NCBI RefSeq assembly: GCF_000612545.2 | Contig: NZ_CP097800.1 | Span: 1,178,001 to 1,242,000, forward strand | Reading direction: 5' to 3' | Source of the DNA: Streptomyces sp. PCS3-D2 | Lineage (GTDB): Bacteria > Actinomycetota > Actinomycetes > Streptomycetales > Streptomycetaceae | Length of the DNA stretch: 64,000 bases | Part shown: piece by piece, positions 9,892-27,439 of the stretch | How the letters are laid out: each line of letters starts with the position of its first letter | Numbering within the stretch: position 1 is the first letter of the stretch | Notes under the pieces: model-generated | What the model saw: only the letters and a program-made list of their open reading frames with translations | Told to the model about the DNA's origin: nothing | Database searches by the model: none | Position numbers and translations under genes: made by a program

Positions 9892-10569
9892 TCACCTCCT
9901 GGGGAGCAGCGAAGAACGGTGCCATTCGTAGAACGCGGGCAGTACGGCACGCAGAACACGGAAGGCCGATATTCCCCCGCGCACCGTGCCGATGCGGACG
10001 AGCTCGTGCTCCGGGGCGTCCACGATCACCCGGACGGCCGCAACGGGCCGGCCGGCGCCCCGGACGGCGGCCCGGAGGGTCGCCGCGGACTCCATGTCGA
10101 CCGCGACGGCGCCGGTGGCACGCAGCTGCGCGCGCTCCTGGCCGCGGACGACGTGGTCGGACCCGGTCAGCGGACCGATGTGCACGGTCCGGCCGGGGGC
10201 GGCCCGGGCCAGCGCCTCGGCCAGCAGCGCGGTCCCGGTACAGGCGACGGTCCCCCGCGGGTCGCGGGTCTCCTCCGCGACGACGAGGTCGCCCGGGCTC
10301 ATCCCGGGGACGAGCCCGGCGCAGAACCCGGTGGCGAGGACGGCGGCCCGCTCCGTCCCGGCCCCCTCCAGGGCCCGGAGCACGGCCCGTTCGGCCGCCC
10401 GCGGGCCCATCCCGGTGCGCAGCAGGGTGTACGCCCCGGCCCGCGCGGGGTCCGGCCCGCGGGCGGAGCCGCGCCCCGCGCTGCGCAGAGCCGCCTGCTC
10501 GATGCGCAGCGCGCAGGCGACGAGCAGCGGGCCGGTCTGCGGGGCACGGTCGCCCTCGGCGCCGGACAT
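9892..10569 (-). CDS. hpnG: Nucleoside phosphorylase-like HpnG
   Basis: 225-aa member of the PNP/UDP phosphorylase superfamily. It removes adenine from adenosyl-hopane to give a ribosyl-hopane intermediate in C35 hopanoid synthesis (family knowledge). Visible features are a Gly-rich nucleoside/phosphate site (GMGPRAAERAV; GFCAGLVPGMSPGD) and the VAVDMESAA motif near residue 175, whose Glu contacts ribose in this superfamily. The ATG overlaps the shc stop by one base (TGATG), so the two are translationally coupled. An Arg/Trp-rich C-terminal tail ends in LLPRR. Confidence 0.88.
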   Translation of the reverse strand: MSGAEGDRAPQTGPLLVACALRIEQAALRSAGRGSARGPDPARAGAYTLLRTGMGPRAAERAVLRALEGAGTERAAVLATGFCAGLVPGMSPGDLVVAEETRDPRGTVACTGTALLAEALARAAPGRTVHIGPLTGSDHVVRGQERAQLRATGAVAVDMESAATLRAAVRGAGRPVAAVRVIVDAPEHELVRIGTVRGGISAFRVLRAVLPAFYEWHRSSLLPRR

Positions 10570-12734: not shown

Positions 12735-12854
12735 GGCTTCCCCTTAGAACAGTGTCCTGTGCTGTGCTGGGGTCTGCCGTCGGCCGGTGCGCGCCTCGTT
12801 CAGATGGCGGCGCCGGCCGGCGACTCGCGATTCATATCCGCTGCCGGGTGGCGG

Positions 12855-14039
12855 TCACCTCTTGCGTACGACGACGAAGTCGGCGAGGTCCACGAGCTGT
12901 TCGCGGACCCGCTGGGGCATGTCGATGTCGTCCAGGGCGCGGATCGCCACCGCGTGCTGGCGGCGTGCCTCGTCCGCGGTCCACTGGCGGCCGCCGGCCT
13001 CCTCGATGAGTCTCGCGCGGGCCGCGAACTCCTCCTCCGAGAAGTTCTCGAAGTCGCTGCTCTTGGCGTCGGCGGCGAGCAGCTCGGCGAGTTGCTCGGA
13101 GGCCGGGCCGCCAGCGGCGAGGGCGGCGACCACCGGGAGGGACTTCTTGCGCTGGCGCAGGTCGCTCCAGGTCTGCTTGCCGGTGGACTCCGGGTCTCCC
13201 CAGATGCCGAGCAGGTCGTCGACGGCCTGGAAGGCGAGGCCGAGGTGGTAGCCGTACTCCTCCAGCTTGTCGGCCGTTCGGTCGTCGGCTCCGCCGAGCA
13301 CGGCGCCGATGGAGACCGCGCAGGCGAGCAGGGCGCCCGTCTTGTTGCCCTCCATCTCCAGGCACTCCTCGACGCTGACGCGCTCGCGGTGCTCGTAGGA
13401 GATGTCCTGGGCCTGGCCGTCGATGAGCTTGCGGCTGGCGGTGGTCAGGCGGCGGGTGGCGCGGCCGGCCTCGACGGTGCCGAGTTCCAGCAGGACCTCG
13501 TTGGCGAGGGCGAAGAGGGCGTCGCCGACCAGGATCGCCTGGGCCGGTCCGTGCACCTTCCAGACGGTGTCGCGGTGGCGGCGCTGCTCGTCGCCGTCCA
13601 TCAGGTCGTCGTGGAGCAGCGAGAAGTTGTGCACGAGCTCGACGGCGACGGCGCCGGGGATGCCGATCTCGGGGGCGGCGCCGGCGGCCTCGGCGGAGAG
13701 CAGGGCGAGGGCGGGACGGACGGCCTTGCCACCGTCGCCGTCGGCCGGGTGGCCCTGGGCGTCGATCCAGCCGAAGTGGTAGGCGGCGACGGTGTCCATG
13801 GGCGCGGCGAGCCGGTCCACGGCCGCGCGGAGCGCGGGGGTCGACATCGTCCGGCCGCGTTCCAGGAGGGCGACGGTGTCGGCCTTCTCCACGCCCCTTC
13901 CGGCTGCGCCCACACTGGCATCCGTGTTCTCGACAGCCGGATTCCCCGGGTTCACTGGCTCTCCTCTTGTTCCTGTACGTGCTGTGCTCGTGGTGCTGGT
14001 GACGGCGCTGGTGCCGGTCGTCGTGGTGGTGGTCGTCAT
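12855..14039 (-). CDS. Polyprenyl diphosphate synthase (E-type)
   Basis: 394-aa trans-isoprenyl diphosphate synthase. The first Asp-rich motif is DDLMD (144-148), the second is DDLLGIWGD (274-282), and NKTGALL lies between them. In this operon it presumably supplies farnesyl diphosphate for HpnC/D; chain length cannot be read with certainty. ATG at 14039 overlaps the hpnE stop by 4 nt and would begin with a poly-Thr run. GTG at 13955 has a better ribosome site (GAGGAGA) and removes this 28-residue low-complexity leader, so the true start is open. Confidence 0.93.
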   Translation of the reverse strand: MTTTTTTTGTSAVTSTTSTARTGTRGEPVNPGNPAVENTDASVGAAGRGVEKADTVALLERGRTMSTPALRAAVDRLAAPMDTVAAYHFGWIDAQGHPADGDGGKAVRPALALLSAEAAGAAPEIGIPGAVAVELVHNFSLLHDDLMDGDEQRRHRDTVWKVHGPAQAILVGDALFALANEVLLELGTVEAGRATRRLTTASRKLIDGQAQDISYEHRERVSVEECLEMEGNKTGALLACAVSIGAVLGGADDRTADKLEEYGYHLGLAFQAVDDLLGIWGDPESTGKQTWSDLRQRKKSLPVVAALAAGGPASEQLAELLAADAKSSDFENFSEEEFAARARLIEEAGGRQWTADEARRQHAVAIRALDDIDMPQRVREQLVDLADFVVVRKR

Positions 14040-15415
14040 GCCGCCTCCTGCAGAGGGTGTTCGCGGTGGCGGCCGAGCCCGGCGAGTGCGGCCTGCGCCG
14101 CGCTCAGTCCGCTCCGCACGGCGCCCTCCATGGTCGCGGGCCAACCCGTGGCAGTCCACGCACCGGCCAGGTAGAGCCCCGGCGTGTCGGTCCGGGTCCC
14201 GGGGCGCAGCCGGCCGACGCCCGGGGTTGGCGCGAAGGTGGCCGTCCGCTCCCGGGTGACGAAGAAGTCCCGTACCTTGGCGCCGCGCGCGGCGGGGAGC
14301 AGTCGTTCCAGCTCGGGGAGGTACTTGGCGCGCAGCACCGAGACGGGCTCGTCGATGTCGTCCTGGGCGGCGGACTGCGACAGCGCCAGGTACTGGCCGC
14401 CGTCGGTCAGTCCGGAGGAGTCGGTGCGGTCGAAGACCCACTGCACCGGGGAGCCGAGGGCGGCGAAGAAGGGCTGCCGGAGCACCTTGCGGTCGTAGAC
14501 GACGTGGACGTTCAGGATCGGTGCGGTGCCGATGTCGAGGAGCCTGCCGGGGTCGTCGAGGGCGCCGGCGGGCAGCAGCCCGTGCGCCTCGCGCTGCGGT
14601 ACGGCGAGGACGACGGTGCCCGCCGCCAGGGACTCCTGCTCGGTGTCGACCCGCCAGGCCCCGTCCGGCGTACGGGTCACGGCCGTGACGCGGGTGCGCA
14701 GTTCGGTGCGGACCCCGGCGGCGTCGAGCTGTTTGCGGGCGAGGGTGTCGTGGAGGTCGCCGAGCGGTACGCGGGCCCAGCCGATGTCGGCCGCGCCCTT
14801 CTCGGAGAGCAGTCCGGTCTTGAAGACCATGGCGGCCAGGCCCAGGGAGGAGTGCTCGGCGGTGGCGTTGAGGGTCGCGATGCCGACGAGGTCCCAGAGG
14901 GCCTCGATGGTGCGGGCGGACTGCCCGTGGCGGCCGAGCCAGGTGGCGAAGTCCAGGCCGTCCAGCGCCGGGTCGGCCGGGTCGAGGCGGCGCAGGGCGA
15001 GGGCGGCGCGGCCGACGCTGGCGCGCTCCGCGAGGGACAGGTGCGGGTAGCGGGCCAGCGCCCCGGCGAGGTGCAGGGGCACGGGCAGGCCGCCGCGGCG
15101 CAGCCGTCCCAGGCGCGGCCCGCCGGGGTGGGCGACGTCGAGGACGGGTACGTCGAGCCGGTCCTGGAGCGGGGCGAGCGCGGAGCCCTCGACGCGGTCG
15201 AGGAACCACCGGTAGGCGGTGCAGCAGCGCAGGTAGACGTGCTGGCCGTTGTCGACGTCGAGGTCGCCGCGCTTGAAGGAGAAGGCGAGCCCGCCGAGCC
15301 GGGGGCGGCCTTCGAGCAGGGTGACGCGGAGTCCGGCGTCGACGAGTTCGAGGGCGGCGGTGACCCCGGCGAGGCCGCCGCCGACGACGACGGCGTGCTG
15401 GTCGGTACCGGTCAT
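14036..15415 (-). CDS. hpnE: Hydroxysqualene reductase HpnE
   Basis: 459-aa FAD-dependent amine-oxidase/phytoene-desaturase-type enzyme. It reduces hydroxysqualene to squalene after HpnC and HpnD (established for this trio). The N-terminal dinucleotide fold reads VVVGGGLAGVTAALEL (~9-24) followed by LLEGRPRLGG. A C-terminal FAD segment (DTPGLYLAGAWTATGWP) ends in a dimer-like helix. ATG at 15415 is preceded by GGGGGAGG. The stop overlaps the next gene's ATG (ATGA). Confidence 0.93.
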   Translation of the reverse strand: MTGTDQHAVVVGGGLAGVTAALELVDAGLRVTLLEGRPRLGGLAFSFKRGDLDVDNGQHVYLRCCTAYRWFLDRVEGSALAPLQDRLDVPVLDVAHPGGPRLGRLRRGGLPVPLHLAGALARYPHLSLAERASVGRAALALRRLDPADPALDGLDFATWLGRHGQSARTIEALWDLVGIATLNATAEHSSLGLAAMVFKTGLLSEKGAADIGWARVPLGDLHDTLARKQLDAAGVRTELRTRVTAVTRTPDGAWRVDTEQESLAAGTVVLAVPQREAHGLLPAGALDDPGRLLDIGTAPILNVHVVYDRKVLRQPFFAALGSPVQWVFDRTDSSGLTDGGQYLALSQSAAQDDIDEPVSVLRAKYLPELERLLPAARGAKVRDFFVTRERTATFAPTPGVGRLRPGTRTDTPGLYLAGAWTATGWPATMEGAVRSGLSAAQAALAGLGRHREHPLQEAA

Positions 15416-15636
15416 GCGTCCTCCCCCGTGGTGCGGCCGCCCTCCGGGCGGACGGGCAGGCCGCGGTCCGCAGGCAGGGACGCGCCCGCCGTCGGCCCGG
15501 TTGCTCCGCCCGGCGCACGGCCGGGACGGCACGCCGTGCCCGTACGCCGGGCGCCGCCGGCGCGCGCCGGGCGGATGCTCCGGAACGTCCCCGGGGCGCC
15601 GGCCTTGGGAGCCGGGAGTGCCTTCTTCCGGGTCAC
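15412..15636 (-). CDS. Small basic protein between hpnD and hpnE
   Basis: A 74-codon frame fills the gap between hpnD and hpnE. Its ATG overlaps the hpnD stop (ATGA, 15633-15636), and its TGA (15412-15414) overlaps the ATG of hpnE, so it would couple both neighbours. The product is rich in Arg, Ala, Gly and Pro, with no recognisable domain or membrane segment. Small hypothetical ORFs occupy this slot in other streptomycete clusters as I recall (possibly DUF6380-like), but that is unverified. It could be only a translational bridge. Confidence 0.5.
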   Translation of the reverse strand: MTRKKALPAPKAGAPGTFRSIRPARAGGARRTGTACRPGRAPGGATGPTAGASLPADRGLPVRPEGGRTTGEDA

Positions 15637-16613
15637 GTCCGCCTCCGGACGGCCTGGCGGGAGACGGTGCGCGCGTCGAGGCCGGACAGGCCGCGCACGG
15701 CCACGTACGCCTTCTCGTGCGGCGGCAGCGAGACCCGGCCGCGCAGGACCGCCTCCGGCTCCCGTTCGATGCGGTCGAGGAGGCGCCGGTAGATACCGGC
15801 CATGGCGGCCACGCAGGCGCCGCTGCGCCGGTCGAGCATCGGCAGCAGCCGGTAGCCCTCGGCGAACAGGGAGCGGGCACGCCGGACTTCGTGGTGGACC
15901 AGCCCGGCGAAGTCCGCGCCCGCGGACAGCCGGTCGGCCCGGAAGCCCTCCGAGCAGCCGAACTTGGCGAGGTCCTCGGCGGGCAGGTAGGTGCGTCCGT
16001 TGCCGGCGTCCTCGCGAACGTCGCGCAGGATGTTGGTGAGTTGCAGGGCGAGGCCGAGCGTGTCGGCGTACTCGGCGGCGCGCGCGGCGCCGGGGGTGTC
16101 CGGGCCCGCTGCGCCCACGGTGCCGAAGACGCCGAGGGAGAGCCGTCCGATGGCGCCGGCCACGCAGCGGCAGTAGATCTTGAGGTCGTCCCAGGTCTCG
16201 TAGGTCTCGCCGCGGACGTCCATCAGCACGCCGTCGATGAGCTCGTCGAGGCCGCCGAGCGGGATCGGGAAGCGGCGGGCGGCGTGCGCCAGCGCGACGG
16301 CGACCGGATCGGTGTCGTCTTCGTCGACCTCACCGGCCCGGATCCGCCCGAGGACGGCACGGGTCTCCTCCAGGCGCGCGAACTTCGCCTCGACGGGCAG
16401 CGTGCCGTCGCCGATGTCGTCGACCCGCCGGGAGAAGGCGTAGAGCGCGGACATCGCATGGCGCTTGTCGGTGGGCAGCAGCCGGATCCCGTACGCGAAA
16501 TTGCGCGCCTGTGAACCGGTGACGGCCTCGCAGTAGCTGTAGGCCGCCGAGACCTGTGCGGAGACCGCGGTCGGTGCGGAAGCGTGTGTGGGGCCCTCCA
16601 CGGTCGGGCTCAC
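15633..16613 (-). CDS. hpnD: Presqualene diphosphate synthase HpnD
   Basis: 326-aa head-to-head prenyl synthase that condenses two farnesyl diphosphates to presqualene diphosphate. The two Mg-binding motifs are DDIGD (65-69) and DVRED (198-202), the latter in the diagnostic LQLTNILRDVREDAGNGR stretch. C-terminal helices with PHEKAYVA complete the squalene/phytoene synthase fold. The ATG overlaps the hpnC stop by 4 nt. Its sequence is similar to but longer than HpnC, as expected for the paralogous pair. Confidence 0.94.
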   Translation of the reverse strand: MSPTVEGPTHASAPTAVSAQVSAAYSYCEAVTGSQARNFAYGIRLLPTDKRHAMSALYAFSRRVDDIGDGTLPVEAKFARLEETRAVLGRIRAGEVDEDDTDPVAVALAHAARRFPIPLGGLDELIDGVLMDVRGETYETWDDLKIYCRCVAGAIGRLSLGVFGTVGAAGPDTPGAARAAEYADTLGLALQLTNILRDVREDAGNGRTYLPAEDLAKFGCSEGFRADRLSAGADFAGLVHHEVRRARSLFAEGYRLLPMLDRRSGACVAAMAGIYRRLLDRIEREPEAVLRGRVSLPPHEKAYVAVRGLSGLDARTVSRQAVRRRT

Positions 16614-17539
16614 CCCTTTCTCGGCGCTGTGCGCAGGACGGCGGCAACCTCGCGGAGCAGGCCGCTCTTGGTCGGTTTGGGCGGGCCGGGGAGTACGTCG
16701 AAGCCTGCGGCGGTGACGGCTCGCAGGGCGGCACGCCCCCCTCCCACGAAGCCCGCGAGCAGCAGTCGGAGCCTGCCGTGCACGCTACCCACGAGCGGTA
16801 CGCCTTCATTCAGCAACGCGCGTGCGCGTTCGGATTCGAAGGCGATCAGGGCGCGCACCGAGGCGCCGGCGGACGGTGCCGCCAGGTCGGCCTCGGACAC
16901 GTGGAAGCGACGCATGTCCTCGGCCGGCAGGTAGATCCGGTTCCGGCCCAGGTCCTCGGCGACGTCCTGGACGTGCTCGACGATCTGGAGGGCGGTGCAG
17001 ACGGAGTCGGAGAGGCGGATCCGTTCGGGGGTGCTGGTGCCGGTGAGGGACAGCACGAGGCGGCCGACCGGTTGGGCGGACAGCTCGCAGTACGCGGCGA
17101 GGTCCGCGTAGGTCTCGTAGCGGGTGACCCGCTGGTCCTGGCGGTTGGCCTCGATGAGCGCGAGGAAGGGCTCGGGGGTCAGGCCGTGGGAGCGCACCAC
17201 GGGTTGCAGCGCGAGCAGCAGGGGGTGGCGCGGGGGGCCGTCGGCGGAGCCGAACACGCGCAGCAGGTCGGCCTCGAAGGCGTCCAGCATGGCGGGCGGG
17301 TCGTCCACCGCCGCGGGGTCCAGGCCGAGGAGCACGGCGTCGCGTCCGCCGGGGGCGAGGTCGCCGTCGCCGATGTCGTCGACGAGGCGGGCGTATCCGT
17401 AGACGGCCGTCAGCCCGTCGCGCCAGGCCCGGGGCAGGAAGGCGGGGGCGACGGGAAAGTTCTCCGCCGCCGCCTTGTCGAGGGTGGCGCTCACGTGGAC
17501 CGGGTCGGACGGGGGTCGGATGCCGTGTCCCGGGTTCAC
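16610..17539 (-). CDS. hpnC: Hydroxysqualene synthase HpnC
   Basis: 309-aa squalene/phytoene-synthase-fold enzyme converting presqualene diphosphate to hydroxysqualene. Motifs are DDIGDGD (54-60) and VQDVAEDLGRNRIYLP in the second half. It is the first gene of the operon. GTG at 17539 is the longest start but lacks a clear ribosome site; an internal GTG (VSATLDKAAAENFP) is an alternative that trims 15 residues. The 386 bp upstream hold the presumed operon promoter and the terminator of the upstream ABC operon. Confidence 0.92.
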   Translation of the reverse strand: MNPGHGIRPPSDPVHVSATLDKAAAENFPVAPAFLPRAWRDGLTAVYGYARLVDDIGDGDLAPGGRDAVLLGLDPAAVDDPPAMLDAFEADLLRVFGSADGPPRHPLLLALQPVVRSHGLTPEPFLALIEANRQDQRVTRYETYADLAAYCELSAQPVGRLVLSLTGTSTPERIRLSDSVCTALQIVEHVQDVAEDLGRNRIYLPAEDMRRFHVSEADLAAPSAGASVRALIAFESERARALLNEGVPLVGSVHGRLRLLLAGFVGGGRAALRAVTAAGFDVLPGPPKPTKSGLLREVAAVLRTAPRKG

Positions 17540-17925: not shown

Positions 17926-18708
17926 TCAGCCGTGGGTGGCCTTCTCGTAGGCCGAGACGACTTCCTCCGTCGGCCCGTCCATCAGGAGCTCGCCCTTCTC
18001 CAGCCACAGCACCCGGTCGCAGGTGTCCCGGATGGACTTGTTGTTGTGGCTGACGAGGAAGACCGTGCCGGCCTTCTCCCGGAGCTCCTTGATCCGATTC
18101 TCCGAACGCACCTGGAAGGCGCGGTCACCGGTGGCGAGGGCCTCGTCGATCATCAGGACGTCGTGGTCCTTGGCCGCCGCGATGGAGAACCGCAGCCGCG
18201 CCGCCATACCGGAGGAGTACGTGCGCATCGGCAGGGAGACGAAATCCCCCTTCTCGTTGATGCCCGAGAAGTCGACGATGCTCTGGTAGCGCTCCTTGAT
18301 CTGCTCGCGGCTCATACCCATGGCGAGACCGCCGAGGACGATGTTGCGCTCACCGGTGAGGTCGTTCATCAGCGCGGCGTTCACGCCGAGCAGCGAGGGC
18401 TGGCCGTCGGTGTAGACCTTGCCCTCCTCGCAGGGCAGCAGGCCGGCGATGGCGCGCAGCAGGGTGGACTTGCCGGAGCCGTTGGAGCCGATGAGGCCGA
18501 TGGCCTCGCCGCGGTAGGCGGTGAAGGAGACCCCGCGCACGGCGTGGACGCGGCGCACGCCCGGGGCGTCGCCCTTCCTCCGGCGGACTATCTTGCTGAG
18601 CGCGGCGGTGGCCGCACCCCTGCCGCTGCTGCCGACGTTGACGCGGTAGACGATGTGAACGCCGTCCGCGATCACTGTGGGGACGCGTCCCCGGGTGTTG
18701 TCATCCAC
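17926..18708 (-). CDS. ABC exporter ATPase (TagH/Wzt-like)
   Basis: 260-aa ATP-binding subunit of an ABC-2 exporter for polysaccharide or polyol-phosphate polymers. Walker A is GSNGSGKST (~74-82), the signature is YSSGMAARL (~164-172), and Walker B is VLMIDEA (~184-190). The degenerate YSSGM signature and the DEALATGD motif are typical of the TagH/Wzt/RfbE branch. There is no C-terminal carbohydrate-binding extension, so export would not depend on a capped glycan end. GTG start overlaps the permease stop by 8 nt. Last gene of the seven-gene operon. Confidence 0.93.
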   Translation of the reverse strand: MDDNTRGRVPTVIADGVHIVYRVNVGSSGRGAATAALSKIVRRRKGDAPGVRRVHAVRGVSFTAYRGEAIGLIGSNGSGKSTLLRAIAGLLPCEEGKVYTDGQPSLLGVNAALMNDLTGERNIVLGGLAMGMSREQIKERYQSIVDFSGINEKGDFVSLPMRTYSSGMAARLRFSIAAAKDHDVLMIDEALATGDRAFQVRSENRIKELREKAGTVFLVSHNNKSIRDTCDRVLWLEKGELLMDGPTEEVVSAYEKATHG

Positions 18709-19630
18709 GGCCGTAACGCTCCTCAGACTTCCAGAAGTACACGAAGCCGCCGAGGCCGATCACCGTGGCCCAGCCCACGGCGAAGAGCCACACGTGCGGA
18801 GGCAGGTTGCTCGCGCCGTAGTCGTCGATCAGGGCGAACCGGATCAGGTCCATGTAGATCGCGACGGGGTTCAGCAGCAGCGCGTCGCTGATCCACTGCG
18901 GCTGCTCCTTGAGGTAGATCCCGATCGGGAACATGACGCCCGACGCGTACATCCAGGTACGCATCACGAACGGCATCAGCTGCGCCAGGTCGGGGGTCTT
19001 CGAGCCCATCCGCGCGAAGATCATGGCGAGGCCGGTGTTGAAGACGAACTGGAGCGCCAGCGTCGGGATCACCAGCAGCCAGGACAGCCGCGGGTAGTTG
19101 CCGAACCAGACCGCGACCACGAAGACGACGATCATCGAGTACAGCAGCTGCTGGAGCTGCTGGAGCGAGAACGACACCGGCAGGGAGGCGCGCGGGAAGT
19201 GCAGCGCGCGCACCAGCCCGAGGTTCCCCGAGATCGCCCGGACGCCCGCCATCACCGAACTCTGCGTGAAGGTGAAGACGAAGATGCCCATCACCAGGAA
19301 GGGGATGTAGACGTCCTTGGGCATCTCCCGGCCCGCGCCGATGATCAGGCCGAAGATCAGCCAGTAGACGAGCGCGTTCAGCAGGGGGGTCACCACCTGC
19401 CACACCTGGCCGAGCTTCGCCTGGCTGTACTGCGCGACCAGCTTGGCCCGGGAGAAGGCCATGATGAAGTGGCGCCGGCCCCAGAGCTGCCGCACGTACT
19501 CGCCCAGGCCGGGCCGGGCGCCGCTGACCGACAGGCCGTACTTCCTGGCGAGCTCCGCGGCGCTGAGCCCCGCGTCTGCGGACGGCGGCCTGCTCGTGGC
19601 GAGGGCGCCGTCGTGGGTTGTGTCACTCAC
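18701..19630 (-). CDS. ABC-2 type permease (TagG/Wzm-like)
   Basis: 309-aa integral membrane subunit paired with the following ATPase. After a ~60-residue cytoplasmic N-terminus with an amphipathic GEYVRQLWGRRHFI segment, about six hydrophobic helices follow (first near LLNALVYWLIFGLIIG), ending in YFWKSEERYGRG. This is the ABC-2 polysaccharide/teichoic-acid permease layout. GTG at 19630 has only a weak ribosome site, and 94 bp separate it from the glycosyltransferase stop. The cargo is inferred to be the product of the enzymes encoded upstream in the operon. Confidence 0.92.
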   Translation of the reverse strand: MSDTTHDGALATSRPPSADAGLSAAELARKYGLSVSGARPGLGEYVRQLWGRRHFIMAFSRAKLVAQYSQAKLGQVWQVVTPLLNALVYWLIFGLIIGAGREMPKDVYIPFLVMGIFVFTFTQSSVMAGVRAISGNLGLVRALHFPRASLPVSFSLQQLQQLLYSMIVVFVVAVWFGNYPRLSWLLVIPTLALQFVFNTGLAMIFARMGSKTPDLAQLMPFVMRTWMYASGVMFPIGIYLKEQPQWISDALLLNPVAIYMDLIRFALIDDYGASNLPPHVWLFAVGWATVIGLGGFVYFWKSEERYGRG

Positions 19631-19724
19631 AAGTTGAAACTTTCGTCTTCAAGATGCGGCCAGGTGGGCAGCAGGCTGGTGGCTCGAAGCCCGTTTTCGC
19701 GCCATGTTCGCAGACGCGGGCTGG

Positions 19725-20618
19725 TCAGATGACGGGAGGTCGGCCCAGACGGGTCAACCGCCAGACCGTACGCCATCTCATCGGGCGGCGGGGCCCGCAG
19801 GGAGTGGCCCATCCCTCGCGGAACCCGCCGAACCAGGCCTTGAGCGCCGGGCCCGACGGCTTCCGCAGGAGCGTCAGCATCAGCCAGACGCCCAGGTAGA
19901 CCGGTACCAGCGGGGCGGGCAGGTTGCGGCGGGCGAGCCACACCCGGTTACGGGCCACCATACGGTGGTAGACCGCGTGCCGGGAGGGGGCGGTGGTCGG
20001 ATGGAGCAGGACCATGTCCGCGCGGTAGTCGATCAGCCACCCCGCGTCGAGCGCGCGCCAGGCCAGGTCGGTCTCCTCGTGAGCGTAGAAGAACTCCCCC
20101 GGCAGGACTCCGGCCTGCTGGAACACCGTGGTGCGGACGGCGTTGGCACCGCCCAGGAAGGTGGTCACGCGTGAGGACCGCATCGGGTCCGAGGCGCGCA
20201 GCCGCGGCACGTGGCGGCGCTGCGTCCGCCCGGTGTCCGGGTCGGCGATCCGGAAGCTGATGATCCCGAGCTCGGGGTCCTCGGCGAAGGCCTGGCGGCA
20301 CAGCTCGGCGGTGTCGGTGCGCTCCAGCAGCCCGTCGTCGTCGAGGAAGAGCAGGGCGTCCACCTCGCGGCCGCCGGGCCCGAAGGCCTCGATGCCGACG
20401 TTGCGGCCGCCCGGGATGCCGAGGTTCTCGGGCAGGTCGACGCAGCGGACGCCCGGCGGCAGGTCCGCCACCTCGGACACCCGTACTCCCTGGCCCACGA
20501 CGACGACCTCGACCGGGTCGCCGTCCTGGCGGGCCACCGAGTCCAGGAGGGCCTTGAGCTCGTCGGGCCGGTTGCCCATGGTGATGATCACGGCGCCCAG
20601 CCGCATCGGGGCGGTCAC
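19725..20618 (-). CDS. Family 2 glycosyltransferase
   Basis: 297-aa GT-A fold enzyme. The nucleotide-sugar half is visible in GAVIITMGNRPDELKALLDS (~8-27). The metal-binding acidic run LFLDDDG has D93-D95, and YAHEETDLAWRA is the ED-type catalytic region. A hydrophobic segment (~240-255) and basic C-terminus suggest membrane association. It probably adds a sugar to the lipid or polyol-phosphate product of this operon. GTG start overlaps the preceding gene's stop (GTGA); ATG 12 nt further in is the alternative. Confidence 0.9.
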   Translation of the reverse strand: MTAPMRLGAVIITMGNRPDELKALLDSVARQDGDPVEVVVVGQGVRVSEVADLPPGVRCVDLPENLGIPGGRNVGIEAFGPGGREVDALLFLDDDGLLERTDTAELCRQAFAEDPELGIISFRIADPDTGRTQRRHVPRLRASDPMRSSRVTTFLGGANAVRTTVFQQAGVLPGEFFYAHEETDLAWRALDAGWLIDYRADMVLLHPTTAPSRHAVYHRMVARNRVWLARRNLPAPLVPVYLGVWLMLTLLRKPSGPALKAWFGGFREGWATPCGPRRPMRWRTVWRLTRLGRPPVI

Positions 20619-21394
20619 TTCAGCCTGCTGGAAGCGAGGATCGACACCAGGTGCAGCACGGTCTGGAGCATCGCGATGCCCGCGAGGACGGCGACGCCGA
20701 CGCGCGACCAGTAGAGATCGCCGCGCATCTGGTCCAGGACGGCCAGGAACAGGATGAGCAGCGAGGCCTCGATGCCGAGGATCAGGCGGTGGAACTTGAG
20801 CGCGGCCGCCGCGCGGCGCGCGAGGGCCATGCCCTTGGCGCGCGGCTCGGCCGCCGCGTCCTTGACCACGGGCTTCCCCGCCTGGTGGCGGGCGACTCCG
20901 ACCAGGTCCGTCTCTGCCTTGATCAGGATGGCGCCGAGCGCGGCGAGCGTGCCGAGGAAGGCCCACAGCCAGTCGGCGCCTCCGGTGCCCCCCAGGTCGG
21001 CGGCGCGCAGGCCGAAGCCGACCAGGACCGCCGCGTCGCACAGGTAGGCGCCGACCCGGTCCAGGTAGACCCCGGAGAGCGAGTACTGCTTCTTCCAGCG
21101 GGCGACCTCGCCGTCGACGCAGTCGAGCAGCAGGTACAGCTGGACCGCGACCACGCCGAGGACGGCGCCCCAGACGCCCGGCACCAGCAGCGCCGGCAGG
21201 GCGAGGACGCCGGCGAGGGTCATCAGGTAGGTCAGCTGGTTGGGGGTGACCTTGGTGGTGACCAGGACGCGGGTGATGCGCAGGGAGATCTCGCGCATGT
21301 AGAGGCGCCCGCCCCAGTGCTCGCCGCTGACCCGGTCCTTCACGCCCGCGGGGTGGACGACGGGCCTCAGTTCAGCTACGGATGGTCTTGGCAT
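20615..21394 (-). CDS. CDP-alcohol phosphotransferase, final motif Asp replaced
   Basis: 259-aa polytopic membrane enzyme of the CDP-alcohol phosphatidyltransferase family, transferring a phospho-alcohol from a CDP donor. The motif runs D91, D94-G95, A98-R99, G108, D112, but the position expected to be the last Asp is Ala116, with an Asp four residues later at D120. The first conserved segment GEHWGGRLYMREIS precedes about six helices. ATG at 21394 overlaps the end of the dehydrogenase-like gene by 23 nt and has a weak ribosome site. The substrate is unknown; the altered motif may mean altered chemistry. Confidence 0.88.
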   Translation of the reverse strand: MPRPSVAELRPVVHPAGVKDRVSGEHWGGRLYMREISLRITRVLVTTKVTPNQLTYLMTLAGVLALPALLVPGVWGAVLGVVAVQLYLLLDCVDGEVARWKKQYSLSGVYLDRVGAYLCDAAVLVGFGLRAADLGGTGGADWLWAFLGTLAALGAILIKAETDLVGVARHQAGKPVVKDAAAEPRAKGMALARRAAAALKFHRLILGIEASLLILFLAVLDQMRGDLYWSRVGVAVLAGIAMLQTVLHLVSILASSRLK

Positions 21395-22433
21395 AGTCGG
21401 CGTATGCGTCCCTGATCTCGGCGGCGGACAGGTTGAGGTGCTCCAGGACGGTGAAGCGTCCCGGGCGGGTCTGGGGGGCGTACTCGACGGCCGCGACGAA
21501 CTCCTCGACGCTGAAGCCGATCTCCTCGGGGGCGACCGGCAGGCCGTGCCGGCGCAGCACCTCGACGAAGTGGCCGGAGGCGTCCGCGGCCCCGCGCAGG
21601 TGCATCGCGAAGGCCGCTCCGATGCCGACCTGCTCTCCGTGCAGCGCGGAGCGCCCCGGGTAGAGCAGGTCGAAGGCGTGGCTGATCTCGTGGCAGGCCC
21701 CGGAGGAGGGGCGGGAGTCCCCGCTGATCGACATGGCGATGCCGGAGAGCACGAGCGCCTCGGAGAGCACGGTGAGGAACTCGTCGTCACCGCAGCCGCC
21801 CGGGTGGCGCAGCACGGACTCGCCCGCGGTACGGGCCATGGCCGCGGCCAGGCCGTCGACTGGCTCGCCGGTGGTCCGGTGCGAGAGCTCCCAGTCGGCG
21901 ATCGCCGAGATGTTGGAGATCGCGTCGCCGATGCCGGCGCGGATGAACCGCACCGGGGCTTCCTTGATGACGTCGAGGTCGATCACCATGGCGATCGGCG
22001 TGGGGACGCCGTAGGAGCCGCGGCCGTTGTCGTTGTCCAGGATGGACACCGGCGAGCAGATCCCGTCGTGCGAGAGGTTGGTGGCGACGGCCACCATGGG
22101 CAGCCCGACCCGCGCCGCGGCGTACTTGGCCACGTCGATGATCTTGCCGCCGCCCAGGCCCACGACGGCGTCGTAGCGGCGGCCCTTTATGTCGTCGGCC
22201 AGCTTGACCGCGGAGTCGATGGTGCCGTCGACGACGGCGTACCAGTCGGCGTGCGGGAGCACGGGCTCCAGCTTGGCGCGCAGCGCCACGCCGGAGCCCC
22301 CGCTGATGGCGATGGCGAGCTTGCCGGAGGCGGAGATCCGCTGGTCGGCGAGGAGGCCGGCCAAGTCGTCCATCGCACCGCGGCTGATGTCGACGACGAC
22401 GGGCGAGGGGATGAGCCTCGTCAGTACTGGCAT
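21372..22433 (-). CDS. sn-Glycerol-1-phosphate dehydrogenase-like enzyme
   Basis: 353-aa iron/zinc-dependent alcohol dehydrogenase-fold enzyme. The NAD site is GLGGGKIID (~92-100). The SHDGICSP block (121-128) is typical of the glycerol-1-phosphate dehydrogenase (EgsA/AraM) branch, and candidate metal ligands are D170, H252 and H265 (SRPSSGACHEISH, LHGEQVG). The family reduces dihydroxyacetone phosphate to glycerol-1-phosphate, or related ketose phosphates. In this operon it likely makes the polyol phosphate that is later CDP-activated. ATG at 22433 overlaps the previous gene's end by 13 nt. Confidence 0.88.
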   Translation of the reverse strand: MPVLTRLIPSPVVVDISRGAMDDLAGLLADQRISASGKLAIAISGGSGVALRAKLEPVLPHADWYAVVDGTIDSAVKLADDIKGRRYDAVVGLGGGKIIDVAKYAAARVGLPMVAVATNLSHDGICSPVSILDNDNGRGSYGVPTPIAMVIDLDVIKEAPVRFIRAGIGDAISNISAIADWELSHRTTGEPVDGLAAAMARTAGESVLRHPGGCGDDEFLTVLSEALVLSGIAMSISGDSRPSSGACHEISHAFDLLYPGRSALHGEQVGIGAAFAMHLRGAADASGHFVEVLRRHGLPVAPEEIGFSVEEFVAAVEYAPQTRPGRFTVLEHLNLSAAEIRDAYADYAKTIRS

Positions 22434-23173
22434 GCGATCGTCCGGCCCTTGGCGAGGTCGTCGTGGTTGTCGATCTCGACCCACTTGACGTCGCCGATGG
22501 GGGCCACGTCGACCACGAAGCCGTCGTTGACGAGCTGCTGGTAGCCGTCCTCGTAGTAGAGGTCCGGGTCGCGCTCGAAGGTGGTCTTCAGCGCCTCGGC
22601 CAGGGCCTCGGCCGCCTCGGGCTCGATGAGGGTGACGCCGATGTACTCGCCGGTGGCGTCGGCGGGGTCCATCAGCTTGGTGATCTTCCGTACGCCCTCG
22701 CCGTCGGCGGTGACGACCTTCATCTCCTCGTCGGCCAGGTCCTTGACCGTGTCGAGGGCGAGGATGATCTTCTGGCCGTTGCCGCGGGCGGCGAGGAGGG
22801 TCTCCTCGACGGAGACCGGGTGGACGGTGTCGCCGTTGGCGAGGATCACACCGCGCCGCAGCACCTCACGCGCGCACCACAGGGAGTAGGCGTTGTTCCA
22901 CTCCTCGGCCTTGTCGTTGTCGATCAGCGTGATCTTCAGCCCGTACGTGGCCTCCAGCGCGGCCTGGCGCGCGTAGACGGCCTCCTTGCGGTAGCCGACG
23001 ACGATCGCGACCTCGGTGAGACCGACCGCGGCGAAGTTGCCGAGGGTCAGGTCGAGGACCGTCAGGCTCTCCTCGTCGCCCTCGGGGCCGACGGGCACGA
23101 GGGCCTTGGGCAGGGTGTCGGTGTAGGGGCGCAGGCGGCGTCCCGCACCGGCAGCGAGGACAAGGCCGATCAT
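22421..23173 (-). CDS. CTP-dependent nucleotidyltransferase (phosphocholine cytidylyltransferase-like)
   Basis: 250-aa NTP-transferase fold protein. The N-terminal signature LAAGAGRRLRPYTDTLPKAL (~6-25) carries the GxG-R and PKAL lysine. LANGDTVHP holds the metal-binding Asp, and WVEIDNHDDL near the C-terminus is typical of the LicC-like cytidylyltransferases. It most likely couples a phospho-alcohol to CTP, giving the CDP-alcohol donor used by the two phosphotransferases in the operon. ATG at 23173 overlaps the preceding stop (ATGA) and has AGGAG at good spacing. Confidence 0.9.
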   Translation of the reverse strand: MIGLVLAAGAGRRLRPYTDTLPKALVPVGPEGDEESLTVLDLTLGNFAAVGLTEVAIVVGYRKEAVYARQAALEATYGLKITLIDNDKAEEWNNAYSLWCAREVLRRGVILANGDTVHPVSVEETLLAARGNGQKIILALDTVKDLADEEMKVVTADGEGVRKITKLMDPADATGEYIGVTLIEPEAAEALAEALKTTFERDPDLYYEDGYQQLVNDGFVVDVAPIGDVKWVEIDNHDDLAKGRTIACQY

Positions 23174-24957
23174 GCTGGTTCTCCTTCGTCATGTACGGCG
23201 GGTGCCCCGGAGGAGACCCAGAAGCGGATGCTCTCCACGAGCACCACGAGTGCCACGAACACGGCCAGGACCGTGAGCGCGACGGGGAAGTCCGATGCGC
23301 GGTCCACGAGGACGGCGGCGAGGACCGTGGTCAGCAGGACCCGTCCCTCGTGGCCGCCGATCGTCCGCACCAGCCAGTGCGGGGGCGCGCCGGTGCCGCC
23401 GCGAATGCGGTACACCGTGTCGTAGTGATGGTAGGCGACCGCCGCGATCAGGCCGAATGCCGCCGGAAGCGCGCCGGGGACGTCCGCCTTGGCGGCAAGC
23501 GCGAGGACCGTCACGTACTCGGCCGCCCGGAACAGCGGCGGGATCAGCCAGTCGAGCGCGCCCCGGAGCGGGGCGGCGACGGCGAGGCCCGCGGTCATGA
23601 CGTAGATCACGGCGACGGCGATGAGCCTCGGGTCGCCGAAGGGGAGGTACAGGGCGGCTGTGGCCATCAGCACGGTGCCGAGGGCGGCGACGTACACGGA
23701 CCCGAAGGAGCCGGCCCGCCCGCGCAGCAGCCTGGCCTGGAACTCCGCGAGCGGGCCCGAGTCGGCGAGGTCGGCGAGCGCCTGCGCGGCGCGGTCGGTG
23801 CGCCGGGCCCTGCGGGTCAGGGACCGCAGGACGCGGCCAGCGGTGGTGTACAGCGCGCCGAACGCGCAGCCGGCGATCAGGGCGTAGAAGACGATCCGGG
23901 GGGTGGTGAGGGCGGTCAGGACCGCGATCATCGCCCAGCGCTCGCCGATCGGCAGGATGATCATCCGCCGGACCCACACCGTCCAGCCGACGCTGTCGAG
24001 CCGGTCCGACAGGGCGGCGGTCGGGCTCGTGTTGGCGGTGGCGTCGTGGTTGGCCTCGTTGAAGGAGAAGTCCACGACGTGCCGGCAGGTCATCAGGATC
24101 ATGGCGCCGAGGGCGAGGCCCCAGACGTCGTCGCCGTTGCGGGCGGCACCGAGCGCGAGGCCGGCGTAGAAGGAGTACTCCTTGGCCCGGTCGAAGGTCG
24201 CGTCGAGCCAGGCTCCCATCGTCGAGTACTGCAGGGAGTAGCGGGCGAGCTGCCCGTCGGTGCAGTCCAGGACGAAGGACACGATGAGGAGCACACCGGC
24301 CGCGACGTAGCCCCAGCGCTCGCCCGTGGCCGCGCAGCCGGCCGCGATCAGTGCGGTGACCAGCGAGGCGGTGGTGACCTGGTTCGGGGTCAGACCGCGG
24401 CGCGCACACCATCGGGCGAGGTAGCGCGAGTAGGGGCTGATGCAGAAGGTGGTGAAGAACCCGTCGCGGGACTTCACGGCCGACCGCAGCCGGACGGCCT
24501 CCTCGTCCACGGCGGCGACCGCGGCGGCAGCCGCCGCCCGCTCGTCCGCGCCGGCGGGGACGGTGGCGACCAGGCTGCCGAGTTCGGGGCGCTGGACGGT
24601 GGTCCCGGCGGCCTCGACGGCGGCGGCGAGCCGGTCGGCGTAGGGGGCGGCCCCGTGGGCGCCCTCGGACGCCACCGCCTTGTCGAGGGCCTCGCGGGCA
24701 CTCGCCTGGACGGAGAGGGCACCGGTGACGGCACATGCCTCGAAGCGCGGGTCGGTCAGCGCCAGCCGCAGGGAGTGGACGTGGCCGACGAAGGCGCTGT
24801 CCACGACGGCCACCCGCTGGTCGGCGGGTACGCCGGCCAGTGCGGCTGCGGCGTCCTGGGGACCGGCGGCCGGGCGGACCTCGAAGCCGAGTGAGCGGAG
24901 CTCGTCCGCGAGCGGCGATCCGGGGACCGGCAGGCCGGTGAGGATGACGGTCGGCAG
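23170..24957 (-). CDS. Nucleotidyltransferase-like/CDP-alcohol phosphotransferase fusion
   Basis: About 595 aa. Residues 1-165 form an Ala-rich soluble domain ending in VDEEAVRLRSAVKSRDGFFT, reminiscent of the junction in inositol-phosphate cytidylyltransferase/DIPP-synthase fusions, but with no intact nucleotide-binding GxG motif. Next is a canonical CDP-alcohol phosphotransferase with D231, D234, D252 and D256 (motif DCTDGQLAR...GAWLDATFD). Many more helices follow (perhaps DUF5941). No ATG/GTG/TTG lies between the upstream stop and 24813, yet coding continues; CTG at 24957 has AAGGAG 9 nt upstream and is taken as start. First gene of the operon. Confidence 0.85.
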   Translation of the reverse strand: MPTVILTGLPVPGSPLADELRSLGFEVRPAAGPQDAAAALAGVPADQRVAVVDSAFVGHVHSLRLALTDPRFEACAVTGALSVQASAREALDKAVASEGAHGAAPYADRLAAAVEAAGTTVQRPELGSLVATVPAGADERAAAAAAVAAVDEEAVRLRSAVKSRDGFFTTFCISPYSRYLARWCARRGLTPNQVTTASLVTALIAAGCAATGERWGYVAAGVLLIVSFVLDCTDGQLARYSLQYSTMGAWLDATFDRAKEYSFYAGLALGAARNGDDVWGLALGAMILMTCRHVVDFSFNEANHDATANTSPTAALSDRLDSVGWTVWVRRMIILPIGERWAMIAVLTALTTPRIVFYALIAGCAFGALYTTAGRVLRSLTRRARRTDRAAQALADLADSGPLAEFQARLLRGRAGSFGSVYVAALGTVLMATAALYLPFGDPRLIAVAVIYVMTAGLAVAAPLRGALDWLIPPLFRAAEYVTVLALAAKADVPGALPAAFGLIAAVAYHHYDTVYRIRGGTGAPPHWLVRTIGGHEGRVLLTTVLAAVLVDRASDFPVALTVLAVFVALVVLVESIRFWVSSGAPAVHDEGEPA

Positions 24958-25343
24958 ACGAACTCACTCCTTGTGACGGATTCCGAACGCGCGCACCCGT
25001 GGGGCGGCACGTCGGCAGAGGCTATCGGATGAAGGGAACCAGGGATTCATCGCCCGTTTACGCCCTGACAAGCCGAATATCCGGGGTCGGGCCGCGTCGC
25101 GATCATCATCGGTGATCACGATGCGGTACCACAAACGGCCCGGATGTTACGGTGGACACGCCCCTGCAGGTGTCGAGCGGAAACGAGGTGGGTTGATGAC
25201 CGTCGCGAGGGTCGCGGCCGAGCGCTGCGAGCTCCGGTGCATCTCCCCCTTCCTCCGGGCGACCGGCCGGGCCTGATCCATCGTTCCCCGTATCGAGCCG
25301 GGAACGTCCAGATCGGCCGGAGCCCCTGTTCCCAGGGTTCACG
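24958..25343. other. Divergent promoter region
   Basis: 386 bp between the divergent CDP-alcohol operon and the methyltransferase-GNAT gene. It contains a small plus-strand ORF (annotated separately) and a short dyad GATCA-N7-TGATC near 25100-25117, with less GC-rich DNA at 25020-25110. This is the only sizeable candidate promoter region for the seven-gene operon. Confidence 0.5.
25196..25276 (+). CDS. Possible 26-aa leader peptide
   Basis: ATG at 25196 follows GAGGTGGG and opens 27 codons ending in TGA 67 bp before the methyltransferase-GNAT start. The peptide has two Cys (ERCELRC) and six Arg. Its position suggests a translated leader, but conservation is unknown and it may be chance. Confidence 0.3.
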   Translation: MTVARVAAERCELRCISPFLRATGRA

Positions 25344-26657
25344 TTGACCGACGACATCAGTGACGTCAGCATCACCGACGCCGCCTCCTTCGAGGCTTTC
25401 CTCACCCTCCACCACGGCCTTCCCCGGCAGGCTCCGGGCTCCGATGCGAGCACCCGCGCCCTGCTGTCCCTGTGCGGGCCGCTGCCCGAGCGTCCACGCG
25501 TCCTCGACCTGGGCTGCGGTCCGGGCCGCAGCGCGCTACTGCTCGCCGCCGAGGCGGGCGGGCCCGGCCCGGACGCCGCCGAGGTGACCGCCGTGGACCT
25601 GCACGGCCCCTTCCTCGACGAGCTCCGCGCGGCCGCGGCGGACCGCGGCCTCACCGACCGGATCCGCACCGTCGAGGCGGACATGGGCGCGCTGCCCGCC
25701 GAAGAGGCCGGGGACGGTTCCTTCGACCTCGTCTGGGCGGAGGGCTCCGCCTACATCCTGGGCTTCGACACCGCGCTCGCGCGGTGGAGGCGGCTCCTCG
25801 CCCCGGGCGGCACGCTCGTACTGACCGAGTGCGAGTGGACGGCAGCGGAGCCGTCCGCCGGGGCCCGCGCCTTCTGGGACCCCCAGTACCCGCTGCGCTC
25901 CACCGCCGGAAACGTCGCGGCCGCGCAGGCCGCCGGCTACCGGGTCCTGGGCGTGCACCCGCTGCCCGACTCCGACTGGGAGGAGTACTACGGCCCACTC
26001 GCCGAGCGGGTCCGCGAGCGGTCCGGGGACGGCTCCCCGGCCGTGGCGCGGGCGCTGGCCGCCACCCGCGAGGAGCTCGGCGTACGGGCCCGGCACGGGC
26101 ACGAGTACGGCTACACGGGCTACGTCCTGCGTCCGGTGGAGGCCGGCGCGGACGGGGCCTGGCCGGCCCGTCCGGAGACCGCTGCGGACACCGCCGCCGT
26201 GCGGGCGGTCCACCTGGCGGCCTTCGAGACCCCGCTGGAGGCGGATCTCGTGGACGCGCTGCGTGCGGACCCCTCCTGGCCGGCCGCGCTGTCGTACGTG
26301 GTCGAGGCCCCGGACGGCTCGGTGGCGGCGCACGCCCTGCTCACCCGGTGCAAGGTCGGCGGCGCCCCGGCGCTGGCGCTCGCCCCGGTGGCGGTCGCTC
26401 CGGCGCACCAGCGCTCGGGGGCGGGCAGCGCGGTGGTGAGGGCCCTGCTCGCGGCGGCGCGGGAGCGGGGTGAGTCGCTGGTGCTGGTGCTGGGGCACCC
26501 GGCCTACTACCCGCGCTTCGGATTCACCGCGGCGTCACGATTCGGGATCCGGGCCCCCTTCGAGGTCCCCGACGAGGCGCTGATGGCGTTGGTGCTGGAC
26601 GGTTCCGGACCGGTGCCGGCGGGGACGATCGCGTATCCGGCCCCGTTCGGAGTCTGA
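25344..26657 (+). CDS. SAM methyltransferase - GNAT acetyltransferase fusion
   Basis: 437-aa two-domain protein. Residues ~1-260 are a class I SAM-dependent methyltransferase (motif I VLDLGCGPGRSA at ~53-64, acidic AVDLH for SAM ribose, FDLVWAEG as motif IV). Residues ~270-437 are a GNAT N-acetyltransferase with the acetyl-CoA loop VAVAPAHQRSGAGSAV and a YhbS-like end (LGHPAYYPRFGF). The join reads continuously with no frameshift, so this is a real fusion. Substrates are unknown; the two domains might act in sequence on one amine. TTG start at 25344 with AGGG just upstream. Confidence 0.85.
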   Translation: MTDDISDVSITDAASFEAFLTLHHGLPRQAPGSDASTRALLSLCGPLPERPRVLDLGCGPGRSALLLAAEAGGPGPDAAEVTAVDLHGPFLDELRAAAADRGLTDRIRTVEADMGALPAEEAGDGSFDLVWAEGSAYILGFDTALARWRRLLAPGGTLVLTECEWTAAEPSAGARAFWDPQYPLRSTAGNVAAAQAAGYRVLGVHPLPDSDWEEYYGPLAERVRERSGDGSPAVARALAATREELGVRARHGHEYGYTGYVLRPVEAGADGAWPARPETAADTAAVRAVHLAAFETPLEADLVDALRADPSWPAALSYVVEAPDGSVAAHALLTRCKVGGAPALALAPVAVAPAHQRSGAGSAVVRALLAAARERGESLVLVLGHPAYYPRFGFTAASRFGIRAPFEVPDEALMALVLDGSGPVPAGTIAYPAPFGV

Positions 26658-26733: not shown

Positions 26734-26839
26734 GGGCCGTAGCACGCGGCGGGGGGCGTGCATACACGGATGTCCGAAGTGGGGACAAGCCTCTTTTGTA
26801 CGGCAGACTGAAGGCCGAAGTCCGAAGCGAAGGATGGGT

Positions 26840-27439
26840 ATGCCGACCACACCAGCCACCGCCGCGAACAGCGCGTCCAACGGCACCGGTACTCAAGAAC
26901 CGATCATGCTCGAACTGGTCGACGAGTCCGGGAACACCATCGGCACGGCGGAGAAGCTCTCCGCCCACCAGGCACCGGGGCAGCTGCACCGGGCGTTCTC
27001 CGTGTTCCTGTTCGACGAGCGGGGCCGTCTGCTGCTCCAGCAGCGGGCCCTCGGGAAGTACCACTCGCCGGGCGTCTGGTCGAACACCTGTTGCGGCCAC
27101 CCGTACCCCGGGGAGTCTCCGTTCGCGGCGGCGGCCCGGCGGACCCACGAAGAGCTGGGGCTGTCGCCCTCGCTGCTCGCGGAGGCGGGAACGGTGCGCT
27201 ACAACCACCCGGACCCCGCGTCGGGCCTCGTGGAGCAGGAGTTCAATCACCTGTTCGTGGGACTTGCGCAGGCTGCCGTGCGGCCGGACCCGGAGGAGGT
27301 CGAGGACACCGCCTTCGTCACCGCCGAGGAGTTGGCGAAGCGGCACGCCGAGGTGCCGTTCTCGGCCTGGTTCATGACCGTGCTGGACGCGGCGCGGCCC
27401 GCGATCCGCGAGCTGACCGGCGACGCGGCGGGCTGGTAG
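26840..27439 (+). CDS. idi: Isopentenyl-diphosphate delta-isomerase, type I
   Basis: 199-aa Nudix-fold isomerase interconverting IPP and DMAPP. The active-site cysteine lies in NTCCGHP (C84/C85), and RTHEELG is the Nudix-box region with metal-binding glutamates (~102-108). QLHRAFSVFLFDERGR and EFNHLFVG supply conserved His/Glu. ATG at 26840 is preferred because AAGGATGGG gives it normal ribosome-site spacing; the ATG 6 nt earlier sits directly on that site. It balances the C5 pool used by the hopanoid operon ~10 kb away. Monocistronic. Confidence 0.93.
   Translation: MPTTPATAANSASNGTGTQEPIMLELVDESGNTIGTAEKLSAHQAPGQLHRAFSVFLFDERGRLLLQQRALGKYHSPGVWSNTCCGHPYPGESPFAAAARRTHEELGLSPSLLAEAGTVRYNHPDPASGLVEQEFNHLFVGLAQAAVRPDPEEVEDTAFVTAEELAKRHAEVPFSAWFMTVLDAARPAIRELTGDAAGW

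Follow-up and report, generated by a model that had tools for sequence, protein, structure and literature searches.

We propose that a seven-gene operon of Streptomyces sp. PCS3-D2 supplies CDP-glycerol for, and exports the product of, a pathway to an actinobacterial envelope polymer of the teichoic acid type, built from glycerol phosphate. We consider this reading fairly likely. The operon lies in a window of 64,000 nucleotides (contig NZ_CP097800.1, positions 1,178,001 to 1,242,000; host genome size 7.63 Mb), where its minus-strand genes, here called P1 to P7, fill positions 17926-24957. The substrate is probably sn-glycerol-1-phosphate, which has the archaeal hand, as judged from the homology of the dehydrogenase P3. 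The genes are listed below with the evidence for each.

P1, 23170..24957, minus strand: N-terminal part of unclear type, CDP-OH_P_transf domain and C-terminal DUF5941 (Pfam, signature, alignment).
P2, 22421..23173, minus strand: NTP_transferase, predicted CTP:glycerol-phosphate cytidylyltransferase, nearest solved relative LicC (Pfam, NCBIfam, solved match).
P3, 21372..22433, minus strand: Fe-ADH_2, homologue of glycerol-1-phosphate dehydrogenase (G1PDH), EgsA/AraM-type (Pfam, NCBIfam, solved matches).
P4, 20615..21394, minus strand: CDP-OH_P_transf, related to AF2299/DIPPS, with the catalytic residue D4 replaced (A116) (Pfam, NCBIfam, alignments).
P5, 19725..20618, minus strand: GT2 glycosyltransferase, Glycos_transf_2 (Pfam).
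P6, 18701..19630, minus strand: ABC-2 permease of the exporter, ABC2_membrane; top NCBIfam matches are galactan/capsule exporter permeases, below cut-off (Pfam, NCBIfam).
P7, 17926..18708, minus strand: ABC ATPase of the exporter, ABC_tran; top NCBIfam match is TagH, at 177 bits against a cut-off of 320 (Pfam, NCBIfam).

Successive genes overlap by 4, 13, 23, 4 and 8 nt, with a single gap of 94 nt between P5 and P6. An earlier note on this DNA had described a coupled operon of seven minus-strand genes, and when recomputed on the window its coordinates, overlaps and gap came out identical. The order of activities that it gave (dehydrogenase, cytidylyltransferase, CDP-alcohol phosphotransferase, glycosyltransferase and exporter) is likewise supported; the exporter is of the right kind by its ABC2_membrane and ABC_tran domains, with all subtype matches, to TagH for P7 and to galactan/capsule exporters for P6, falling below cut-off. 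It had also read the first gene as a fusion. The CDP-alcohol phosphotransferase part of this stands by Pfam, and the N-terminus read as nucleotidyltransferase-like has no Pfam match at E 0.1 in the window protein (one of three homologues scanned has a sub-threshold NTP_transf_3 match of 18.5 bits, cut-off 27). That account was silent on DUF5941, on the absence of TagD, on the non-canonical P4 and on a likely role in CDP-glycerol supply. There is no ATG, GTG or TTG at the upstream end of P1; a CTG stands at 24957, and because AAGGAG precedes it this start is plausible, not proven.

All of the following is inferred: the reaction of each enzyme, the handedness, the acceptor for P4 and P1, and the product. 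P3 would convert dihydroxyacetone phosphate to glycerol phosphate, which by homology would be sn-glycerol-1-phosphate, and P2 would use CTP to turn this into CDP-glycerol. P4, together with P1 where present, would draw on CDP-glycerol to place glycerol phosphate on an acceptor that is a lipid or is linked to one, as a priming or anchoring step. P5 would add sugar and P6/P7 would export the product. Chain extension would fall to TagF-type polymerases, which are encoded elsewhere in Streptomyces genomes and, in Embleya hyalina, adjoin the operon. In this scheme P2 and P3 would replace the Firmicutes route of glycerol-3-phosphate dehydrogenase and TagD.

The top solved matches of P3 are G1PDHs, which we take to include enzymes of archaeal species, and the G1PDH likeness claimed in the earlier note is supported. 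Both its metal-site and its substrate-site stretches align to archaeal G1PDHs. At the presumed metal site two His are invariant in all ten aligned sequences, and a third position is Asp in eight and Glu in two; we presume that the two His and the Asp of P3 are the metal ligands. The best solved match of P2 is the CTP:phosphocholine cytidylyltransferase LicC (44 bits), and that of P4 is AF2299. P2 and P4 match separate halves of the bifunctional IPCT/DIPPS (NF041135), at 37.5 and 48.5 bits against a cut-off of 580. IPCT/DIPPS carries out CDP-alcohol synthesis first and transfer second. As P2 and P4 each match one half of the same enzyme, the sequences suggest that P4 uses the product of P2.

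The distribution of teichoic acid genes bears directly on this proposal. The earlier note had held the operon to be unlike teichoic acid loci since it has no TagF, a contrast that finds no support in this form: TagF/TagB (PF04464) is missing only in cis, with four PF04464 matches elsewhere in the host genome. In a sample of 150 genomes of the host family (f1), TagF is present in 141 and P3 (E 1e-30) in 148, and both P3-less genomes also lack TagF (Fisher p 0.003, for genomes that are related and not independent). TagD (TIGR01518) exceeds its curated cut-off in 0 of the 150. As many as 82 of the 141 TagF genomes have no TIGR01518 match at E 1e-3, and P3 is found in 82 of these 82. In a second sample, of 296 Actinobacteria genomes (phylum Actinomycetota), 23 carry TagF (E 1e-20), among which 13 have the dehydrogenase (E 1e-30), four have TagD above cut-off, none has both and six have neither; one of these six, G085, has a TagD-like match of 132 bits against the cut-off of 165. 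With the host family removed from this phylum sample, the dehydrogenase occurs in 4/14 TagF genomes and in 20/273 others (p 0.02).

TagF is also found beside or near the cluster. It adjoins P1 divergently in loci L053, L054 and L147 (Embleya hyalina), and a GT2-TagF gene follows a P1-like gene in L052. Two TagF stretches lie within the same 20 kb as a second copy of P3 in L190 (P3 only), and one TagF lies on the same 20-kb stretch as a second P2-P3 copy in L191. The P1-P5 cluster of L154 (Streptosporangium canum) has beside it a gene with a weak PF04464 match of 26.2 bits. When host TagF proteins were compared with 141 loci, 12 matched at E 1e-10, among them L278 and L279, which had been fetched as TagF loci. 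Streptomyces hygroscopicus is described as having a polyglycerolphosphate lipoteichoic acid (LTA) that resembles its wall teichoic acid, with no clear LtaS in the genomes (PMC3196553).

The gene order is well conserved. Among 16 host-family loci fetched around DUF5941 matches, P1-P7 occur in the same order in 14, and because all seven genes keep their order there chance is excluded; the exceptions are L060, which ends at a contig edge before P7, and L061, which lacks P6, and in L062 P1 is in pieces. This answers the neighbourhood check proposed in the earlier note, with the cluster kept. DUF5941 itself is found in 112 of the 150 family genomes (109 above cut-off). Where full DUF5941 is missing (13 loci fetched), P2-P6 are still present in order (P7 in 9/13), and P1 is for this reason dispensable, with P2-P3-P4 as the heart of the cluster. 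The steadiest unit is P2-P3, whose 13-nt overlap is identical in 118 of 127 loci, some of them from one genome. Outside the family we used the best 80 of at least 583 relatives, a set that contains no Streptomyces and over-represents relatives of the outgroup query; among these, P2-P3-P4-P5 are found in loci of Nocardiopsis, and together with P1 in those of Streptosporangiaceae. In at least 43 loci, nearly all from Micromonosporaceae, P2-P3 are followed by a different CDP-alcohol phosphotransferase with an intact signature.

Some further details of these loci may be recorded. In L061 the site of the missing permease gene P6 is at 12164-12300, with the remaining six genes present. Three of the 150 family genomes hold a second P3 (L190, L191 and L192), two of them with P2, and L190 and L192 adjoin genes that, on inspection by eye, look like obg and rplU. 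Two LCP-type genes stand ahead of P1 in L050, one confirmed by Pfam and the other read by eye. In the phylum scan, the G1PDH matches of family f9 form a separate, weaker set, with E values of about 1e-63 to 1e-72.

The region upstream of P1 was scanned for PhoP boxes in 35 of 37 loci (L034 and L036 were left out since their P1 start was unmatched). The best upstream repeat has 0, 1 and 2 mismatches in 2, 7 and 10 loci, respectively, that is, at most 2 of 14 in 19/35. Shuffles, which keep base composition only, gave 5 cases with 2 mismatches and none better in 3500, for genomes that are related and in part near-identical upstream. The corresponding feature in the window is weak:

PhoP-box-like repeat, 25045..25062, plus strand: degenerate, with 4/14 mismatches, where relatives carry GTTCACC-N4-GTTCACC.

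A network study names S. coelicolor SCO6753 among the predicted targets of PhoP, with a PHO box (PMC4173021), and this number falls in the S. coelicolor interval that matches the operon by gene order. In that genome SCO6750 is isopentenyl-diphosphate isomerase and SCO6760 phytoene synthase (PMC3897704), SCO6751 is zitB, the number next to idi (PMC5472717), and SCO6759-71 are hopanoid genes (PMC2374992). By gene order, the flanking numbers bracket seven, SCO6752-SCO6758, as the matching interval; the assignment of single genes is putative.

A number of observations weigh against a CDP-glycerol supply operon. P3 scores 243.5 bits against the 413-bit cut-off of the G1PDH equivalog NF002022, and in L053 and L054, both with an adjacent TagF, its presumed metal-ligand Asp is a Glu. 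The higher NCBIfam matches of P2 are sugar-1-phosphate nucleotidylyltransferases (AglF 57.9, Arch_glmU 56.9 and rmlA_long 51.4 bits), which rank above the IPCT half, all of them below cut-off. P4 lacks the family's catalytic Asp D4 in 112 of 112 tree sequences (78 His, 34 Ala). A weaker TIGR01518 match, maybe a diverged TagD, is found in 65/150 family genomes including the host, and TagF homologues could use CDP-ribitol. Seven of the 150 family genomes have P3 without TagF. In the phylum sample TagF accompanies 12 of the 14 best P3 matches (E <=4e-135) and is missing from two, and among 19 more genomes with weaker G1PDH matches 18 have no TagF. The exporter ATPase P7 does not adjoin the cluster in L181, L182, L184 and L185 (4/13 of the loci in which P1 is absent or a remnant), and the Micromonosporaceae loci have neither P5 nor P6 beside P2-P3 (tblastn, 60 bits). 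Finally, a window-wide scan at <=3 mismatches misses the repeat at 25045..25062 and finds no more PhoP sites than in shuffles, and only one of the 13 loci with absent or remnant P1 (L189) has an upstream repeat with <=2 mismatches.

A rival product would be a phosphodiester glycolipid or small glycoside: P4 and P1 would place glycerol phosphate on inositol phosphate or on a lipid of the membrane, P5 would glycosylate and P6/P7 would export, with no polymer and with TagF unrelated. P1 and P4 are indeed similar to enzymes whose products are single phosphodiesters (archaetidylinositol phosphate synthase, DIPPS), the window operon has no polymerase in cis, and in Micromonosporaceae P2-P3 are followed by just one other CDP-alcohol phosphotransferase, without P5/P6. 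We nevertheless regard this account as unlikely: it is countered by the TagF genes that adjoin the operon in three loci and lie near second copies in two more, by the co-occurrence of P3 and TagF where TagD is absent, and by TagH being the top NCBIfam match of P7.

Another keto-sugar or keto-polyol phosphate might instead be the substrate, giving a CDP-alcohol other than CDP-glycerol (e.g. an inositol- or ribitol-like one). The sub-cut-off score of P3 and the sugar-1-phosphate matches of P2 would fit this, as would a separate IspD-SDR fusion beside P1-P5 in L154 (5287-6696), possibly a CDP-ribitol-type enzyme, and other CDP-polyols may therefore occur in such loci. Against it stand the alignment of the P3 substrate- and metal-site stretches to archaeal G1PDH, and the need of TagF genomes without TagD for a source of CDP-glycerol, if a glycerol polymer is made. 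We find it quite improbable.

Two further alternatives have very little in their favour. One is that P3, like AraM together with PcrB in Bacillus subtilis, could serve the synthesis of an ether phospholipid of the archaeal type, since P3 belongs to the G1PDH family and the genus Streptomyces has species with G1PDH, GGGPS and DGGGPS (PMC6431249). P3 is instead locked with a cytidylyltransferase and phosphotransferases, not with prenyltransferases, and PcrB/GGGPS (PF01884) gave 0 matches in the host genome, in a search that covered the host and 14 control genomes, 7 of them positive; because of this absence from the host we set the ether lipid aside as highly improbable.

The other concerns hopanoids. 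Directly downstream, at 10569-17539 of the window, lie a squalene/phytoene synthase-like pair and genes for a desaturase-like protein, a polyprenyl synthase and a squalene-hopene cyclase-like protein, names which come from sequence reading and gene order. That the operon is part of the hopanoid pathway and decorates hopanoids is suggested by the first hopanoid gene being 386 nt downstream, and by a hopanoid gene likewise following the cluster in 12/16 host-family loci. Yet the cluster has no hopanoid neighbours in L053 and L054 or in five of the five loci fetched from genus g200 (L180-L183 and L185), and no hopanoid match occurs near P3 in the 84 loci compared. Because clusters without adjoining hopanoid genes are common we set this idea aside as scarcely credible: the operon adjoins hopanoid genes but is independent of them.

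To return to the proposed CDP-glycerol pathway, its two phosphotransferases deserve a closer description. P1 meets the full signature D-x2-DG-x2-AR-x8-G-x3-D-x3-D, with D4 at D256 as counted from the CTG, and keeps D4 in 21 aligned P1 sequences and in 38 of 38 P1-type motif matches (>=87 bits); 34 further motif matches belonged to other CDP-alcohol phosphotransferases, not of the P1 type. For DUF5941 we found no paper in the open-licence literature. All eight residues of the signature are described as absolutely conserved, and PIP synthase with Asn in place of D4 is almost inactive (PMC4634129). The D4 position of P4 is His in 63 and Ala in 16 of 79 loci (some from one genome), and His in 47 and Ala in 33 of 80 further genomes, sets that overlap the 112 tree sequences. 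P4 keeps an acidic residue (Glu or Asp) one helical turn beyond D4. The 12 sequences that scored nearest to P4 (35-42 bits) are the Micromonosporaceae enzyme, with Asp at D4.

Ala occurs in P4 only where P1 is full, in 34/57 such tips against 0/47 tips where P1 is absent or a remnant, and 8/8 outgroup tips have His. A tie between the His-to-Ala change and P1 is a lead, not a result, because Fitch parsimony gives few changes (two in the residue, seven in P1), the Ala tips are not one clade, the tree alignment included the D4 column itself and a script filter dropped 7 loci.

A few other genes were noted. At C1:2378566-2379568 of the host genome (L006/L173), a PF01467 cytidylyltransferase-like gene, which is the host's sole weak TIGR01518 match (68 bits), adjoins a further CDP-alcohol phosphotransferase. 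TagA (PF03808) gave 19 matches, 18 above cut-off and one in the host, in a search of 61 family genomes; it shows no tie to the operon and plays no part in the argument. An open reading frame at 25344-26657 on the plus strand, which lies between the operon and idi (26834-27439), reads by eye as a methyltransferase with a GNAT-like part.

If the proposal holds, it gives a candidate source of CDP-glycerol for Actinobacteria that carry TagF and no TagD, and it is relevant to the synthesis of polyglycerolphosphate LTA without LtaS, left open in the available text of PMC3196553. It predicts CDP-1-glycerol in bacteria, contrary to the expectation of a 2021 study that calls this compound likely absent there (PMC8262930). 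Actinobacterial G1PDH homologues, which have been used in arguments on the lipid divide (PMC5059525, PMC6431249), would gain a proposed non-membrane role. We put forward more tentatively the possibility that in most filamentous Actinobacteria CDP-1-glycerol is the building block of the glycerol-phosphate polymers, both wall and lipoteichoic. Were this true, the polymer backbone would be archaeal-handed and the membrane lipids bacterial-handed, and the actinobacterial G1PDH branch in lipid-divide trees would represent a wall-polymer enzyme, not a membrane-lipid one. The widespread P4 without an "absolutely conserved" Asp also provides a test of the accepted mechanism of the CDP-alcohol phosphotransferase family.

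The teichoic acid link of the block is already published in part. A 2026 synteny paper (PMC13118837) describes a Streptomyces block with crtB, tagH, tagG, araM, a CDP-alcohol phosphatidyltransferase, a GT2 enzyme and a nucleotidyltransferase, which it associates with teichoic acid biosynthesis; unlike the present work, the available part of that account proposes no pathway, does not argue from TagD and TagF and says nothing of stereochemistry. Within the open-licence literature, as far as its text was available, we found no paper that proposes this G1PDH/CDP-glycerol pathway; PMC6431249 cites an earlier suggestion that connects GGGPS-like proteins of Firmicutes with teichoic acid.

Three known systems share parts with the operon. 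The AraM protein of Bacillus subtilis and the archaeal EgsA are of the same enzyme family as P3, whose site stretches align to the archaeal enzymes; in contrast to these systems the host is without PcrB/GGGPS, and the operon couples CTP activation to P3, not prenyl transfer. Of the archaeal phosphodiester enzymes, IPCT/DIPPS is matched in its two halves by P2 and P4, and AF2299 is the best solved match of P4, whereas here the genes are unfused with a G1PDH homologue between them, a GT2 enzyme and exporter are added, and P4 has no D4. Firmicutes loci for wall teichoic acid (TagD, TagF, TagGH) share CDP-polyol activation, an ABC exporter that here is putatively TagGH-like, and a TagF partner, which here is in trans or, in Embleya hyalina, adjacent. 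They differ in that the operon adds two CDP-alcohol phosphotransferases and that, with no TagD at cut-off, a G1PDH homologue and a LicC/IPCT-like cytidylyltransferase would provide the CDP-glycerol.

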